A stretch of 42,148 nucleotides of DNA. Source: Candidatus Roseilinea mizusawaensis (GTDB lineage: Bacteria > Chloroflexota > Anaerolineae > J036 > Brachytrichaceae). This document shows positions 2,922 through 42,148 of this stretch, piece by piece (position 1 is the first letter of the stretch; every line of letters starts with the position of its first letter). Location of the stretch: the NCBI GenBank assembly GCA_016841965.1, contig JAEANN010000048.1:1-42148 (forward strand), given 5' to 3'. Below the pieces are notes generated by a model, which was not told the DNA's origin, did no database searches, and worked only from the letters and a program-made list of their open reading frames with translations. Position numbers and translations under genes: made by a program.

Positions 2922-4040
2922 CTAATCGCGCAGCCCCTCATTCACATACTGGGTGATTTCGCTCACGCTCAACTGCTCAATGCCCAATTTGTCCAGCGTG
3001 CGACCCCGGCGCCAGTAATCGGTGCGATGCACGATGCAGGCCAGTTGCACGATGCTGTCCATCGCCCGCACCGACACCCCATAGCGCTGGCCGAGCGCTG
3101 CAATGGGCACCAAGCTCATCGGCACGTCCTCGAACAGGTAGCGATGATTGAGCGTGGCCGGCGCTTTGATGCCATAGTAGCCCGGCTGGTTATGGATAGC
3201 CTCATTTAGATCAGCGCCGGTAGCGTTGTAAGCCATCTGCAGCCACTCCATTGCATTGCGCGCGCGGATGCCCAGCGCCGCCGCAACCGTCACCCGCTCG
3301 CGGTCGAGCACCTCCAGCACGCGCGCCACCGACGGCGTGACGCCGTCAATGTAGAACTGGAAGTCGCCGTTGGTGGACTCGATCCGGCCTGCATTCAGCA
3401 GCGTCAGGGCGGGATGGAAAATGGCGCCCATGTTGTTCAGCCCGGTGTTCAGCACGTTTACACCGTCGATGAACTGAGGATAGGCCGGCATGAGCGCCGC
3501 CAGGACATCCGCCGTGCGAATAGCCGGCAGGGCAGCCAGCGGCACTGCTTCCTTGATGCGGAAAATGCGCGCCTGCGCCGGCCCATCCGACCGGCTAGCG
3601 TAGATGAACGTTTCCGCCTCGGCGACCGTCACATCGGCATGGCAGCCCTTGTCGCGCAGCACCTTGGCAAACTCGATCGCCCCACACGTGCGGCCTGGGT
3701 GCAACACCACGATTTGCCCGTCGCGCAGGTGCGGCGCCGCATGGGCGGCGATCTCGGCATGGGCCGAGGACGGCGTAACTACCATTAACACACGTGATCG
3801 CTTGACAGCCTCGCCGATATCTGATGTGACGCAATCCAGCCGGCCAAACCCGCGCGGCCCACCGTCGTAGCTTTCTAGATCAATGCCGCCGCGCTTGCAA
3901 ATGGCGCTGATGCGATCAAAAGTGCGGTTGTACAAGGTGACCCGACAGCCTATCAGCGCCAGGTGCGCGGCCATGGCCTTGCCGCCGTTGCCGGCGCCGA
4001 TTACGGTGTAGTCTGTGTGTCCGTTTGTATGAGGGGTCAC
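2922..4040 (-). CDS. NAD(P)-dependent opine (octopine/nopaline) dehydrogenase family protein
   Basis: The family reductively condenses an amino acid with a 2-oxo acid, or runs the reverse oxidation; the substrate here cannot be read. The N-terminal Rossmann fold carries GAGNGG (residues 15-20). The C-terminal helical domain contains HRYLFEDVPMSLVP, typical of the octopine/nopaline dehydrogenase C-terminal domain. The length of 372 residues is normal. The start is GTG, with AAGGAG about 9 nt upstream; that Shine-Dalgarno overlaps the stop codon of the preceding cobalamin-binding gene. The 12-bp gap makes a two-gene operon very likely, which suggests the two enzymes act on the same amino-acid-like compound. 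Confidence 0.85.
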   Translation of the reverse strand: MTPHTNGHTDYTVIGAGNGGKAMAAHLALIGCRVTLYNRTFDRISAICKRGGIDLESYDGGPRGFGRLDCVTSDIGEAVKRSRVLMVVTPSSAHAEIAAHAAPHLRDGQIVVLHPGRTCGAIEFAKVLRDKGCHADVTVAEAETFIYASRSDGPAQARIFRIKEAVPLAALPAIRTADVLAALMPAYPQFIDGVNVLNTGLNNMGAIFHPALTLLNAGRIESTNGDFQFYIDGVTPSVARVLEVLDRERVTVAAALGIRARNAMEWLQMAYNATGADLNEAIHNQPGYYGIKAPATLNHRYLFEDVPMSLVPIAALGQRYGVSVRAMDSIVQLACIVHRTDYWRRGRTLDKLGIEQLSVSEITQYVNEGLRD

Positions 4041-4052
4041 GAGATTTGCTCC

Positions 4053-5705
4053 TTAACAAGAGTGCAGCGATGCGCTGTACAAGAGTGCAGTGATGCGCTG
4101 TTGCTCTGAGATGGGGTTGCCATCGGCATCCACGGCGTCGCACGCGCCGCGCGCAGTGATGCGGGTGTTGATCTGGCCGCGCGCAAAGCGGCTGTTCTTT
4201 AGTTGCGGCGCATCGAGCAACCCCAATTTCACGGCGCGCGCCAAAGTATCCGGATCGATCAGCGGATCGCTGACGCCGGGGCCGGCCAGCGCCCGAATCG
4301 CATCCAGCAACACATGCGCTTCGGCGGCCAAGAAGGCGCGGCGCTCCTGGATGGCCGGGTCAGCCGTCATATCCGGCGCGCCGCGCACAGCCGTCTCGAT
4401 CACCCGGCGCGCCAGATTGCACGACTCGATCACGTCCTCGGCAGTTGCGGCGTGGTCGGCCTCAGTATGTCCCACCACGTGCACGATGTGCGGCTTGACA
4501 GCCATTTGCACATAGACGCTGGCCGCCAGATGCGCGCGCGCCGCGTCGATATCGAGCGGGTAACTCAGCAGGCCGGTGCGCGTCTGGCGCCAGATGCGAA
4601 AGTGGTCGCCGGCCAACGGGGCAATCAGATCGAGCATGGTCAGCATCTTGGCCAGATCCATCTGATCGCTCAGGCCGGGCGGGCTGTTGAACATGAGTTG
4701 GGCGATATAGTCTCGCACACCAAAGGCGCGCGCGTTGTATGCAGACAAGTACGCCGACACAACACACACCACATCGGACGCGTCGCGCATGCCCCAGTGA
4801 TGCGGCTCGTTCAATTCTACCGGGATATTTTGCGCGCCATACCAGGCCATCACTTGTTGATGCTCGCGGATCGAGCCTGCCAGGTCCCACGGGCCACGCC
4901 CGTCCATCTGGTTGAACCAGAAAAGGGGGATGGCGCACCAGGCAATGTTGATGGTATCGACATACAGCTCGGCCAGGCGGATGAAATCGTCGGTGCCGGA
5001 GTATGTGCGCAGGAGAGGATAATTGCCGCGCCGGCTGGCTGCGTACAGCGCGCGATAGTCGTCGGCGCTGCGCACCGGCGCACCGCCGGCGCCCTTGCGA
5101 CGCGCATCCTGGCGCTCCGGGTGGAAGAAGTTCTCTTGCGCGTCCTGGTCGGTGCCCAATGAGATCACATCTAGCGCGCGCGCCTCGGCAATCTGCGCAA
5201 TCCCATCCAGCGTAGCCTGCATCGTGGGCAGCCCGAAGTGATGCCGGATGAGCGGAAACGGGGACTTCCAGCGGATACGCGCGACGGCAGTCTGTGGGAA
5301 GTCGGTTTCGTCGACTGCGCCGGCAGCCTGTCCTTTCAACCAGGCCAGCACATCGGCGTCAGACTCGGCGCCGGCGAAGACGTGCTCGAAGAAGCCCAAC
5401 GCCTCGGCGCGCGCCGCGACCGGTGGGGTGCCGGCGAAAGCAAATCGCACGCCGGCTGCGCGCAAGTCGTCGGCGGCCTCGGCAAACTCGCCGAGCAACC
5501 GTTCGCCGGTTTCTGGGGTCAGGCGATACGAAACGCCGACCAGGTCAGCGCCCGTTTCGCGCGCCGCAGCCAGCACTTTCTCGATCGACACAGCCGGGCC
5601 AAGAAATACTGTGCGCCAACCGGCTGCTTCGGCCAGCCGAAGGAAATGCGAGACGCCGGCCACATGCACACACTCGCCCAGCGCCCCTGCCACAACGGTT
5701 TTCAT
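4053..5705 (-). CDS. Cobalamin-binding domain fused to a mutase-like barrel domain
   Basis: Residues 1 to about 130 look like a B12-binding flavodoxin-like domain. His14 and Gly17 of the DxHxxG motif are present (CVHVAG), but the Asp position is Cys12. A SYRL segment and GTPP occupy the places of the later SxL and GG motifs. Residues from about 150 to 550 form a long domain with several His- and Asn-rich segments (FWFNQMDGRGPW, ELNEPHHWGMRDASD) and resemble the catalytic barrels of cobalamin-dependent amino-acid mutases such as glutamate mutase E. That assignment is an inference. ATG at 5705 is preferred because GGGAGG lies 5 nt upstream; an in-frame GTG at 5711 overlaps this site. It is the first gene of the operon with the opine dehydrogenase. 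Confidence 0.65.
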   Translation of the reverse strand: MKTVVAGALGECVHVAGVSHFLRLAEAAGWRTVFLGPAVSIEKVLAAARETGADLVGVSYRLTPETGERLLGEFAEAADDLRAAGVRFAFAGTPPVAARAEALGFFEHVFAGAESDADVLAWLKGQAAGAVDETDFPQTAVARIRWKSPFPLIRHHFGLPTMQATLDGIAQIAEARALDVISLGTDQDAQENFFHPERQDARRKGAGGAPVRSADDYRALYAASRRGNYPLLRTYSGTDDFIRLAELYVDTINIAWCAIPLFWFNQMDGRGPWDLAGSIREHQQVMAWYGAQNIPVELNEPHHWGMRDASDVVCVVSAYLSAYNARAFGVRDYIAQLMFNSPPGLSDQMDLAKMLTMLDLIAPLAGDHFRIWRQTRTGLLSYPLDIDAARAHLAASVYVQMAVKPHIVHVVGHTEADHAATAEDVIESCNLARRVIETAVRGAPDMTADPAIQERRAFLAAEAHVLLDAIRALAGPGVSDPLIDPDTLARAVKLGLLDAPQLKNSRFARGQINTRITARGACDAVDADGNPISEQQRITALLYSASLHSC

Positions 5706-6044
5706 TTGCACCTCCCGTGTGCTGAATCAACATACAGCCTGCGCACACCCCATCGCGCGCGCGATGCGTCGCGCAATCGATGAATTGAGGATCGAAAGAG
5801 AGACGAACCCTACCGCTCAGCTCATGATTCTAACCGCAACAAGAGGCAGTCGACTTCTGGGCGCGCAAAGCTGCAACTTGTGCGCGCCAACGCGCCACGT
5901 CCTCGTGGCACGAGCCTCTCTTGAAGACTGCTAGGCAGTTCACACCCACAAATCGACATGTCACAGGCCGGCATCGTCAAAGGTCTGTTATCCTAGAGCA
6001 ACTGATACTTTGCAGCGTCCGTGCTGCGCATGTGGAGGTGAGCC
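5706..6044. other. divergent intergenic region with small hairpin
   Basis: These 339 bases separate the minus-strand cobalamin gene from the plus-strand c-di-AMP receptor and should hold both promoters. I see no ORF with codon character and no RNA gene. A small perfect hairpin (GCCACG, loop TCCT, CGTGGC) lies near 5894-5909; its TCCT loop matches the loop of the hairpin in the 87-bp repeat. No promoter could be called with confidence. Confidence 0.5.
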
Positions 6045-37888: not shown

Positions 37889-38956
37889 TTAACGGCCGGC
37901 CAGGGCAGCTTCGGCTACCAGCCGGCGTTGCTGCATCGTGGCAAACAGCGCCTGGCGTCGGTTACGCCGGGCGACGGCCATTTGAATAATGTTGCTGATC
38001 GCCTCGCCGTAGGAGTAGCCGGCAGCCCGACAAGCGCCGATAAATCCACCCTCGGCTGTGATGTCGGGATTGGGATTGACATCCACAACATACGGCTGAC
38101 CCTGGCGATCGACGCGCAGATCGACACGCGCATAGTCGCGGCAACCGAACACGCGATACGTGTCCAGCACGATGCGCTCGATCTGGGCGCGCAACTCGTC
38201 TGAAACTTGCACCTCGGTAATCACGGGCATGGCATTCCAGTCCACACTGGTGGGCACCCATTTGCTGTCCCAGGTCACCATGCGATGGAAAGGATTTTCG
38301 ATAGCGGAGAAATCAATCTCGCGCAGCGGGAGCACGCGCGGCCGGCCATTGCCCCACACGCCAACGTTGATCTCACGTCCATCCACGAACTGCTCGACCA
38401 GGGCTGCTTCTTTAAATGTTTCGTTGACATACGTCACCCGCCGGCGCAGGCTATCCAGATCGTGCACGACAGCATCACGGGTGACGCCGGCTGAGCAATG
38501 CTGGCTCACCGGCTTGACGATGGCCGGAAATTGATCCCATACCGTGACATCGTCGGCAGATTTGAATTCGCGGCCGGCCGGGGTAGGGATGTCCCACCGT
38601 TGCAACAGACGCTTGGCGCGGCCCTTCTCGACCGAAAGCCGAAGCGTCGCCGGCGGGTTGCCGGTGTAGGTGAACCCCAGCGTCTCCAGGTCTGCGCAGA
38701 TACGGGCGTCACCCCCCACTTCATCTTCGACGCCCTCGCACCAGTTGAAGACGATCCATTTGGCCGGGTCGAAGCGCTTGATAACCTCGGTCACATCTTT
38801 CCAGAACTCGACGATGCGAACCGGATGGCCGATTGCCTCGAGACATTCCACCATGTAGCCGGCATGCCGCCTGGCCTCCTGAGCTTCCTCAGCAGACCAA
38901 CTCTTGTAATAGTTATAGAGCAACAACACCGGCGCTCGAAGTTTTGCTTGCAGCAT
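37889..38956 (-). CDS. Ddl-like ATP-grasp ligase, copy C
   Basis: This is an ATP-grasp enzyme related to D-Ala-D-Ala ligase, which joins a carboxylate to an amine through an acyl phosphate. The N-terminal FNWCEG (70-75) replaces the Ddl HGxxGEDG type motif. TGNPPATLRLSVEKG and FPAIVKP bind ATP. CRDYARVDLRV (from 272) and DVNPNPD (292-298) supply metal ligands; the DVN motif and the trailing GGF replace the Ddl ExNxxPG. It has 355 residues. It is the last gene of the operon with copies A and B and the GNAT gene, 12 bp after the GNAT stop. True Ddl activity is unlikely. Its substrate is unknown. Confidence 0.85.
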   Translation of the reverse strand: MLQAKLRAPVLLLYNYYKSWSAEEAQEARRHAGYMVECLEAIGHPVRIVEFWKDVTEVIKRFDPAKWIVFNWCEGVEDEVGGDARICADLETLGFTYTGNPPATLRLSVEKGRAKRLLQRWDIPTPAGREFKSADDVTVWDQFPAIVKPVSQHCSAGVTRDAVVHDLDSLRRRVTYVNETFKEAALVEQFVDGREINVGVWGNGRPRVLPLREIDFSAIENPFHRMVTWDSKWVPTSVDWNAMPVITEVQVSDELRAQIERIVLDTYRVFGCRDYARVDLRVDRQGQPYVVDVNPNPDITAEGGFIGACRAAGYSYGEAISNIIQMAVARRNRRQALFATMQQRRLVAEAALAGR

Positions 38957-38968
38957 GTCTATATTCCT

Positions 38969-39511
38969 CTACTTCAGCCGCTTTGAGTAAATGAACAGGT
39001 CATCGCCGTCAGCGTAATAGTCGGGCACGATAGCTACGCGGGTAAATTGCTGCGACTGGTACAGCCTGCGGGCGGGAGCATATATGTCGGTTGACGAGGT
39101 GTAGATGACCATCAGGCGGGCGCCATCCTCAATCGCCAATCGCTGCGCCTCGGTCAGCAACAGGCTGCCGGCTCCTTTGCCGCGCGCTGCGCGGTCGACA
39201 CAGATCCAAAACAAATCCCACGTGCCTTTCGTGAGGGCTTCTCGCCCGCAGCAGGCAAATCCAATCATGCGAGAAGTTAACGACGGGCTTTCCTCCCAGC
39301 ATGACAAAAACCGATAGGCCTCATCGGACGGCTGACGCAGGCTTTGCACGAACATGTCATCCACGCAATCGGCATCTGCCGGGCCAAAAATGCCCGAATG
39401 CAGAATCAGGCTGCGCACGAACGGCCGATCATCCGGCGAGGTAGGCACAACGCGCAGAATGGCGTTCTCCCGATTGTGCAGGGCAGTCATAGTCGAGGCT
39501 GTCTCGATCAT
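38969..39511 (-). CDS. GNAT-family N-acetyltransferase
   Basis: This is an acetyl-CoA-dependent acyltransferase of 180 residues. The acetyl-CoA pyrophosphate loop is RAARGKGAGSLLL, following strand DLFWICVD, with the C-terminal segment ARRLYQSQQFTRVAIVPDYYADGDD. It lies between two ATP-grasp genes, 10 bp after copy B and 12 bp before copy C, so it probably modifies an amine in the same pathway, perhaps capping the product or an intermediate. The first eight residues could be excluded by an alternative start at ATG 39490. Confidence 0.87.
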   Translation of the reverse strand: MIETASTMTALHNRENAILRVVPTSPDDRPFVRSLILHSGIFGPADADCVDDMFVQSLRQPSDEAYRFLSCWEESPSLTSRMIGFACCGREALTKGTWDLFWICVDRAARGKGAGSLLLTEAQRLAIEDGARLMVIYTSSTDIYAPARRLYQSQQFTRVAIVPDYYADGDDLFIYSKRLK

Positions 39512-39521
39512 GACATTTCAC

Positions 39522-40589
39522 TCACACAGTTGCCAGCACGCCGCCGGTCTGTGGGACCCACACACCGATGGCGTCATGGACAGGCTGGTTGGCCGGCCGC
39601 TGGCTGCGCTCCAGCGCAAAGCGCAAGATTTGCTCCATCATTTGGCCATAGGTCAAGCCGGCGGCAGCGGCAGCCGTGGCGAAGCCGCCGTCTGGGCTGA
39701 CATCACAATTGCTGTTTACGTCGAGCACCATAGGACGCCCGTTCTTCAGTCTCAGATCGATGCGGCCATAATCGCGGCAGCCCAGCGCCACATAGGCCGC
39801 GAGCGACACTGCCTCGATTTCGGCTTTCAGCTCGGGCGACAGGGGGGCGGGGCAAATGGCCGGGATGCGCTGATATGGCTCGGATGAGGGGTCCCATTTC
39901 GCCTCGAACGTGCATAGCCGGTCGCGCAGATCGCTAAAAGCGTCGTAGATCATGGTGGAGATGCCCAGCACTTGCGGGCGCGCACTCCCCCACACCGACA
40001 CGTTGTACTCGGCGCTGTCGAGGAACTCCTCGATCAACACAGGCCCGTTGAATTCCTGGATGATTCGGGCGGACTGGCACTGCGCCTCGTCCAGATTCAT
40101 CACGACAGAGTCGTGGGTGATGCCATAGGAACAATGCTCGTTAGCCGGCTTGACGATAGCCGGGAACAAGTCTTGTGTGAGCGCATCCTGACAAATTTCG
40201 GCGGGGTCTTCAGCCAGGATCCAGCGCGGAGTGGGCACGTTGTGTTGCTGAAGCGCGTGTTTCATTTTCCACTTGAATTGCGTCACATCCAGCGACTCGT
40301 GATCGGCCCCGGTGAAGGTGTATCCCATGGCCGACAGAACACGGGCTGTATTGGCGTAATAAAATGCCTGGGCCGGCGATCCCTCACACAGGTTGAACAC
40401 CAGCCAATCGTCGGGCGAATACGGCTTAAGCGCCCCGGCCAGATCATGATTCACCTCAACCGGTTCGACCACCCACCCACGCGCTGACAGCGCCGCCGAC
40501 GCATTGCCGATCAGCGTGCGAGTCGCGGCTGTTTCGAAGTCATAGCTCTGTTCGTCCACGCCATACAAAAGCACAACGCGCTGTCTCAT
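39522..40589 (-). CDS. Ddl-like ATP-grasp ligase, copy B
   Basis: This is a second paralogue, with 355 residues if it starts at ATG 40589. FNLCEG is at 65-70, FPAIVKP is the ATP-lysine region, and CRDYGRIDLRL (from 271) leads to DVNSNCD (290-296) and DGGF, as in copy C. A pair of motifs EEFLDSAEYNVSVWG marks the substrate side and is matched by EQFVDGREINVGVWG in copy C, so B and C are closer to each other than to copy A. An upstream ATG at 40658, 6 bp after copy A, would add a basic 23-residue extension; it has AAGAAG nearby. The choice is uncertain. Confidence 0.84.
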   Translation of the reverse strand: MRQRVVLLYGVDEQSYDFETAATRTLIGNASAALSARGWVVEPVEVNHDLAGALKPYSPDDWLVFNLCEGSPAQAFYYANTARVLSAMGYTFTGADHESLDVTQFKWKMKHALQQHNVPTPRWILAEDPAEICQDALTQDLFPAIVKPANEHCSYGITHDSVVMNLDEAQCQSARIIQEFNGPVLIEEFLDSAEYNVSVWGSARPQVLGISTMIYDAFSDLRDRLCTFEAKWDPSSEPYQRIPAICPAPLSPELKAEIEAVSLAAYVALGCRDYGRIDLRLKNGRPMVLDVNSNCDVSPDGGFATAAAAAGLTYGQMMEQILRFALERSQRPANQPVHDAIGVWVPQTGGVLATV

Positions 40590-40664
40590 AGAAAGCCGAC
40601 CCGGTTTGTTGTTGTGGCGCTGCTGCTGTCGTTTCCGCCGTTCGCCGTCGCGTTCCATCGCTTC

Positions 40665-41861
40665 TTACGCGGCCCGACTTCCGTTGAGAACGGCAACCGG
40701 GCTGAATTCCGCCATGCCATATCGCTTAAGCGCGGCGTCGAGCACCGCGCAGACCAAGTCGGCGTGTGTCCAACCTTCGGCCTCAGCCATCAGGGTCAGA
40801 TCGCTGTGTGGGGTGATGCCGGGCAAGCTATTGATCTCCAGGACGTATAACTTGCCATCATCGGTCAGGCGAAAATCGACCCGCCCGTAATCGCGGCAAC
40901 CGGTCACCTTGAACACCTGGTGCGTCAGGCGGCGCACCTCGGCTGTCAGCTTGTCGCCCAGCGGGGCCGGGCACTTGTTGCGATAACAGTCAGCGTAGTC
41001 CAATTTCTGCTGCACGCCGTAGATTGGTTCCAGCTCAGGGGGGTAAGCGCTAAAGTCCACTTCGGTGATGGGGAAGAAGTGAACATCATTCCCGTTACCA
41101 ACCAAGCCGCAGGTAATGTCTTTGCCGTCGATGTAGCTTTCGACCAACGCCGGCTGGCGGTAGGATTCGATTGTCCACGCTACTTGATCGCGCAACTGGC
41201 GCTCATTGCGGACGATGCTAGTGTTGCGGATGCCCATGCCGGTGCCTTCGTGGGCCGGCTTGACAAATAGCGGATACGCAAAGTCCGCGCGAGGGGTGTC
41301 GTCGGGCGACTCGAACACCTGAAACAACGGGATCCGAATGCCGTGGTAATGCAGGATGCGCTGCGTGGTCGGCTTATCCTGGGTGATGGCAGCGGCCAGC
41401 GGGCCAGGGCCGGTATAGCGCAGGCCCATCATCTCCAGAATACCGGGCACCTGCGCCTCGCGGCTCTCGCCCACAAACCCTTCGCACACGTTGAAGCAGA
41501 TATCGGGCTGCCAGGCTGCCAGCCACTCCGGCAGATGCACATTGCCCTCGTGCGCCTGCACGTCGTATCCTCGCGATAGCAACGCAGCGGCATACGAGTA
41601 GGCCGTTTTCTCGCTATCTAGTTCGGCCAGAATGTCGTAAGGTGCGCCCTGGGGCGCGGGGGGAGCGTTTCGGTCGATGGAGACCAGCAATGCAACGCGC
41701 AAACGGCCGGCATCCCGGTTGCGTTTCGAAGGGTCGGCAGATGCCGCGGCAGCGTCTTCTGTGGAGCCGATACGTGAGGGGGGCGCGCCGGTAAGTGAGT
41801 TTGTGGATGCGCGCGGCTGCGCGCCGTTGACGTGGACAGTGAAAGTCTGATTGCTCGACAT
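40665..41861 (-). CDS. Ddl-like ATP-grasp ligase, copy A
   Basis: This is the first gene of the operon, with 398 residues. It has an N-terminal extension of about 50 low-complexity residues (Ser/Ala/Pro/Asn-rich), then LRVALLVSIDRN. FNVCEG is at 123-128, YPLFVKPAHEGTGMGI is the ATP site and flexible loop, and CRDYGRVDFRL (from 322) is followed by EINSLPG (342-348). The latter is the Ddl-like E-x-N-x-x-PG motif that copies B and C have lost. It therefore may keep the ancestral dipeptide-ligase geometry. No convincing Shine-Dalgarno is seen at the expected spacing; GAGGAAG lies about 20 nt upstream. Confidence 0.85.
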   Translation of the reverse strand: MSSNQTFTVHVNGAQPRASTNSLTGAPPSRIGSTEDAAAASADPSKRNRDAGRLRVALLVSIDRNAPPAPQGAPYDILAELDSEKTAYSYAAALLSRGYDVQAHEGNVHLPEWLAAWQPDICFNVCEGFVGESREAQVPGILEMMGLRYTGPGPLAAAITQDKPTTQRILHYHGIRIPLFQVFESPDDTPRADFAYPLFVKPAHEGTGMGIRNTSIVRNERQLRDQVAWTIESYRQPALVESYIDGKDITCGLVGNGNDVHFFPITEVDFSAYPPELEPIYGVQQKLDYADCYRNKCPAPLGDKLTAEVRRLTHQVFKVTGCRDYGRVDFRLTDDGKLYVLEINSLPGITPHSDLTLMAEAEGWTHADLVCAVLDAALKRYGMAEFSPVAVLNGSRAA

Positions 41862-42012
41862 GTCTCAAGCAGATTTGCTTCCTCGCTGTGTTGCTTTCCT
41901 TTCCAAACCAAGCCGGTTATCAACTTTCGATTTTATGGTTCGAGTTGCGCTTGTCAATCTTTTTCACGCTCGGCACAGCTTAAAGTTATTTTTTAACAAT
42001 GTCAAACGCGGC
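41862..42012. other. upstream region of the ATP-grasp operon
   Basis: These 151 bases lie upstream of the first ATP-grasp gene and become AT-rich after about 41920. They should contain its promoter, but none is called because the sequence runs into the artefact at the contig end. Confidence 0.4.
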
Positions 42013-42148
42013 GGGGGGGGGGGGGTTTTTTTTAAAAACCCCCCCCCCCCCCACAAAAGCGAAAACACCCCAACGCGGCGCGCCCCCCCCAAAAAAATTA
42101 ACCCCCCACCCCCCCCCCCCCCCCAAAAAAAAAGGGGTTTGGAATAAA
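42013..42148. other. homopolymer-rich contig end, probable artefact
   Basis: From 42013 the sequence is nearly pure homopolymer runs: G x13, T x8, A x5, C x14, then long C and A runs. This is unlike anything else in the window, and the runs are partly self-complementary. The short ORF translating it (rich in Pro, Gly and Lys) is not a gene. Confidence 0.88.

Follow-up and report, generated by a model that had tools for sequence, protein, structure and literature searches.

A conserved unit of Ddl-like ATP-grasp ligases and a GNAT acetyltransferase in Chloroflexota that may build a small peptide or amide from beta-lysine

The window, that is the whole stretch of DNA analysed here, is an entire contig of 42148 bases (G000:C36) from a genome of 3.86 Mb which is 99% complete. 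At one end of the window four genes on the minus strand form a unit which we call A-B-N-C.

37889-41861, minus strand: the unit A-B-N-C, three Ddl-like ATP-grasp ligases and one GNAT
40665..41861, minus strand: ligase A, 398 aa, PF07478 with E 1e-34, a Ddl-like ATP-grasp amide ligase that co-occurs with KamA
39522..40658, minus strand: ligase B, 378 aa, PF07478 with E 1.1e-22, Ddl-like ATP-grasp, a member of clade D
38969..39511, minus strand: N, 180 aa, a GNAT acetyltransferase, PF00583 with E 1.9e-9
37889..38956, minus strand: ligase C, 355 aa, PF07478 with E 4e-28, a member of clade D and sister copy of B
41862..42148, minus strand: the 5′ flank of A, 287 bases up to the contig end, homopolymer-rich

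An earlier note on this DNA had described a compact minus-strand unit of three Ddl-like ligases and a GNAT, and all four open reading frames are indeed found at these coordinates. The genes are separated by 6, 10 and 12 bases. The note had also given 75 bases as an alternative for the gap between A and B; this value applies if B begins at an internal ATG (MRQRVVLLYG). Judged from the sequence, this ATG near 40589 is probably the true start of B, as it lies closer to the starts of the homologues. The shared motifs could be read as described: FN[VLW]CEG is FNVCEG in A, FNLCEG in B and FNWCEG in C, and CRDY[GA]R[VI]D is CRDYGRVD, CRDYGRID and CRDYARVD, respectively. The motif ends are EINSLPG in A, DVNSN...GGF in B and DVNPN...GGF in C. 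As the note had it, neither a precursor peptide gene nor a transport gene is present inside the unit. The gaps are too small for a precursor gene of the graspetide type, and neither a transporter nor a resistance gene belongs to the core unit.

Upstream of A the contig comes to its end after 287 bases, thus the window gives no basis for judging a promoter or genes farther 5′. The long G, T, A and C homopolymer runs at 41990-42148 look like an assembly artefact and the open reading frames found there are not real. Elsewhere in the window (2922-5711, minus strand) an octopine/nopaline-dehydrogenase-like protein (PF02317) adjoins a protein of 552 aa, which is an unusual pair; the latter has a B12-binding domain and a weak match to methylaspartate mutase E.

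Among named records, those closest to ligase A belong to the Thermoflexales (Anaerolineae, Chloroflexota), with 83% identity to JANWVJ010000002.1 of isolate SKYG113. We searched 60 relatives. Within the same family, strong matches to B are present in 24 of 27 genomes and A is present in 26 of 27; of the 32 other Anaerolineae families, 18 have A as well. The earlier note had held that its proposal would fall if the ordered four-gene set were not conserved elsewhere. The order A-B-N-C is unchanged in 14 of the 15 family loci that were read, which is far beyond chance. The fifteenth locus (L037, genome G006), which is truncated by the end of its contig, has B and N fused into one open reading frame of 517 aa (L037:9572-11125). 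From the conserved order and the B-N fusion we conclude that the unit is under selection and that A, B, N and C very likely act together. A conserved protein of about 106 aa without assigned function, c4 (YYVKGHKCGAITRVRID), is encoded in loci L028-L036 on the strand of A, some 450 bases upstream of it. It is confined to these nine family loci, and we did not count it as a member of the unit.

We then compared the ligases with D-alanine-D-alanine ligase (Ddl). PF07478 is the only full-length-family profile matched by A, B and C, and all three lack PF01820 with its GGxSxExxVS motif. Against the curated NCBIfam Ddl/Van families their best scores are 174, 98 and 111 bits, respectively, compared to a cut-off of 243, and every cut-off is missed. 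The structural models of A (pLDDT 84.9) and C (pLDDT 93.8) match the Ddl fold with Z 32.9 over 298 residues and Z 32.2 over 292 residues, both with an rmsd of 2.4; the first ~50 residues of A are variable and of low confidence in the model. All of the closest solved structures are Ddl/Van enzymes. In A, the residues Lys163, Lys201, Glu241, Arg327, Asp329, Glu342 and Asn344 are invariant in 17 relatives, and in C the residues Lys111, Lys148, Glu188, Lys232-Trp233, Arg277, Asp279, Asn294 and Gly304-Phe305 are invariant. With this fold and with intact residues for ATP and Mg, the proteins are ATP-grasp enzymes of the Ddl type. None of the three has the D-Ala pocket of Ddl. According to an alignment with 1iov and relatives, Y216 of E. 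coli DdlB corresponds to Leu or another residue in A and to Trp in B and C, and S281-L282 corresponds to Ser-Asp in A (S281 is kept) and to Gly-Phe in B and C.

A phylogenetic tree of the copies together with Ddl, which the earlier note had called for, was built from ten real Ddls, 24 rows of clade A and 23 rows of clade D, with both classes (Anaerolineae and apparent Dehalococcoidia) represented. Clades A and D are each supported at 100%, and A, D and some proteobacterial relatives are split from Ddl at 97%. Further, the genome has a separate Ddl: its PF01820 match sits on another contig (C30), away from the unit, and a separate Ddl with PF01820 is present in 45 of 45 good Anaerolineae relatives. 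The copies are thus not plain D-Ala-D-Ala ligases. This identity is ruled out by the missing PF01820, the scores below cut-off, the separate Ddl and the distinct tree clades. Both B and C fall inside clade D. The three-ligase state of the window is therefore most simply read, from the tree, as a later duplication within a two-ligase pathway, in which B and C would derive from one ancestral ligase D. The set of three ligases that the note had put forward is real and conserved in the family, but it is not the ancestral state.

What lies next to A in more distant genomes gives a hint to the substrate. In genomes outside the family, the gene directly upstream of A, which frequently overlaps it, encodes a KamA-type lysine 2,3-aminomutase of about 460 aa. 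Of 80 named loci, 24 have KamA directly upstream of A; in 22 of the 25 genomes with a lone A, KamA is encoded elsewhere. The genome of the window belongs to the latter type, with KamA unlinked to the unit at G000:C45:139106-140461. This copy matches PF04055 and PF12544 (LAM_C) and has the radical SAM motif CxxxCxxC. KamA aligns to the solved lysine 2,3-aminomutase 2a5h with 511 bits, and the positions equivalent to its Arg134, Asp293, Asp330 and Lys337, which contact lysine and PLP, are invariant in 59 of 59 sequences. By sequence, KamA is a lysine 2,3-aminomutase. Among the 32 other Anaerolineae families, KamA is present in 18 of 18 with A and absent in 11 of 14 without A (Fisher p = 2.8e-6); each family is represented by one genome, so that a single event is not counted many times, although the families are still related to one another. 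Three families have KamA and no detected A. Within the family of the window five genomes have A and no KamA match (G007, G015, G018, G019 and G023), all of them drafts which are 78-94% complete.

Class-wide clustering of the 80 loci found no conserved gene of at least 110 aa next to A besides KamA and an MFS transporter. The commonest set in relatives is KamA-A-D-N or KamA-A only. In some Anaerolineae two A-type ligases follow KamA (L064:7747-9845, L087-L090), which is another route to extra ligases than the duplication to B and C. The MFS-type transporter (about 440 aa) precedes a lone A in 11 Anaerolineaceae loci (L118, L126, L127 and eight others) and is possibly an exporter or importer of the product. 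The adjacency of KamA and A in relatives points to beta-lysine. The earlier note had proposed a peptide or amide made without a ribosome or NRPS and then acetylated, and this remains the best reading, but the note had missed KamA as the first enzyme.

A phylum-wide search found A also in a group of genomes of 1.4-1.9 Mb. Eight of these small genomes are almost certainly Dehalococcoides and Dehalogenimonas, because they have about 19-30 matches each to the reductive dehalogenase family PF13486. KamA lies directly upstream of A in 11 of 11 apparent Dehalococcoidia genomes, and in nine of them the two genes overlap by 29-41 bases. Eight of the 11 have the compact operon KamA-A-D-N, in which A, D and N overlap or nearly so; the three without D-N are those of the smaller-genome genus. 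The Ddl N-terminal domain PF01820 was found in none of the 11 genomes with KamA-A. Thus the unit does not serve D-Ala-D-Ala synthesis and persists in the absence of Ddl.

These genomes also bear on a role in the cell wall, in which the ligases would produce or alter a part of peptidoglycan, either its D-Ala-D-Ala end or a cross-bridge of beta-lysine. Such a role would suit the Ddl fold and the Ddl/Van identity of all closest solved structures. Dehalococcoides and Dehalogenimonas, however, have no cell wall, and the eight Ddl-less genomes rich in reductive dehalogenases are of this type. Eight of the 11 Ddl-less genomes with KamA-A also have D-N. Taken with the separate Ddl of the window's own genome and of its 45 good relatives, and with the loss of the D-Ala pocket residues, this makes a role in the cell wall very improbable.

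The fourth protein, N (ACETYLTRANSFERASE), is a GNAT whose nearest solved structure is 2r7h (E 6e-20), deposited as 'putative D-alanine N-acetyltransferase'. Synthesis of N-epsilon-acetyl-beta-lysine by an enzyme of the AblB type was considered and rejected: TIGR03827 matched in 0 of 60 relatives and not in the genome of the window, whereas the positive control matched in 3 genomes. GNATs often act on proteins, and ATP-grasp ligases of other families modify macromolecules or carriers. One could therefore imagine that beta-lysine is attached to a macromolecule or carrier, for example to a RimK/LysW-like carrier or a protein tag, and that no free small molecule is made. A gene for a carrier or precursor is, however, absent from the unit with its gaps of 6, 10 and 12 bases, and in the Dehalococcoidia the genes mostly overlap. 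The ligase sequence also matches Ddl with 166 bits, far above the 27 bits for RimK entries. We regard modification of a macromolecule or carrier as improbable. The substrates of Ddl are free amino acids.

Outside the Chloroflexota, relatives of D with about 30% identity are found together with KamA on plasmids of Thioflavicoccus and rhizobia, and these relatives branch with clade D (96%). Some of the plasmid loci also carry diaminopropionate or diaminobutyrate genes. KamA and an ATP-grasp ligase are thus a recurrent pairing, which on the plasmids looks like secondary metabolism. In the plasmid loci L199, L201, L202 and L205 the KamA and/or ATP-grasp genes cluster with genes for SbnA, ornithine cyclodeaminase, diaminobutyrate transaminase or gamma-glutamyltransferase; we take these loci for probable natural-product clusters, so far uncharacterised, which sit on symbiosis or conjugative plasmids. 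A scan of viral contigs gave two distant relatives only, with 28% identity.

Could the Chloroflexota unit likewise produce an exported natural product, an antibiotic, signal or metallophore containing beta-lysine, with ATP-grasp ligases in place of an NRPS? The plasmid relatives that adjoin genes for KamA, SbnA, ornithine cyclodeaminase or diaminobutyrate transaminase and the MFS transporter before A in the 11 Anaerolineaceae loci would be in line with this. The set in Chloroflexota is, however, near-constant within families and is kept in genomes of 1.4-1.9 Mb, unlike the patchy clusters of secondary metabolism, and a transporter or resistance gene is lacking in the core unit. We therefore consider an exported product unlikely.

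We suggest, with a probability of about 0.6, that A-B-N-C is the ligase and acetyltransferase part of an NRPS- and tRNA-independent pathway to a small peptide or amide from L-beta-lysine. The pathway could proceed in the following steps. First, the unlinked KamA would turn L-lysine into L-beta-lysine, an activity which is known from the family and predicted for this species. Then, A would link beta-lysine to a partner by the first amide bond, at the expense of ATP and by way of an acyl phosphate, in the manner of Ddl; the fold and residues of A argue for this chemistry. The clade-D ligases, one in most relatives and B and C here, could attach one or two more residues, and finally N would acetylate a free amine of the product. 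With KamA-A alone, as in apparent Dehalococcoides, the product would be an amide resembling a dipeptide; KamA-A-D-N would lead to an acetylated compound resembling a tripeptide, and the set of the window to one bond more. Substrates, product, bond order and acetylation site are all predicted here.

By analogy we favour a compatible solute or stress metabolite that stays inside the cell, as the set hardly varies within a lineage and a precursor peptide was not found. Lysine could be fermented as well; the lysine 5,6-aminomutase marker PF09043 had no match anywhere, but its control was equally silent. Dehalococcoidia are not known to ferment amino acids. Apparent Dehalococcoides have one ligase copy, apparent Dehalogenimonas and many Anaerolineae have two, and the window has three. 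Tentatively, the product may be an acetylated beta-lysine oligopeptide which is a core and anciently inherited compound of the Chloroflexota and in which the ligase copy number sets the number of bonds.

So far beta-lysine is known as a constituent of a simple osmolyte and of some antibiotics. If our suggestion is true, the unit would stand for an undescribed class of metabolites in which beta-lysine is joined by ligases of the cell-wall type, even in genomes without Ddl. The Chloroflexota are an abundant phylum which is hard to cultivate and which includes the organohalide-respiring Dehalococcoidia. Genes annotated as 'D-alanine--D-alanine ligase' in this phylum are often not cell-wall genes. 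In addition, the unit supplies new and small peptide-bond-forming enzymes which can be expressed separately.

How does the unit compare with known systems? With the Ddl/Van ligases the three enzymes share the whole fold (Z about 32), the ATP- and Mg-binding residues and the PF07478 C-terminal domain. They differ in that the PF01820 N-domain is missing, every cut-off is missed, the D-Ala pocket is changed and the clades are separate at 97%. The AblA/AblB pathway leads to the osmolyte N-epsilon-acetyl-beta-lysine (PMC1224877, PMC3543383). It has in common with the unit a lysine 2,3-aminomutase and a GNAT, whose action on a beta-lysine product is predicted here, but in our case two or three ATP-grasp ligases are added and the GNAT is not AblB. 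N-acetylglutaminylglutamine amide (NAGGN) is synthesised by a GNAT/ATP-grasp enzyme. The compound is an acetylated dipeptide osmolyte (PMC1224877). Here too, a GNAT and an ATP-grasp ligase would give an acetylated peptide, and one genome has a fusion of B with N; the ligases of the unit are, however, of the Ddl type, number up to three and have KamA as partner. The unit has no linked enzyme of the asparagine-synthetase type, and among the conserved neighbours an amidotransferase was not recognised. Iyer and colleagues reportedly predicted in 2009, by comparative genomics, amidoligase operons with ATP-grasp and GNAT genes and also with GS-like ones. Like the unit described here, these are ATP-grasp and GNAT operons for peptide metabolites. 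A literature search gave no description of the set; the 2009 amidoligase survey lay outside this search, so that an earlier mention is possible. Thus, NRPS-independent peptide pathways with ATP-grasp ligases are already known, and as far as tested it is the combination of KamA with a pair or trio of Ddl-derived ligases and a GNAT which is new.
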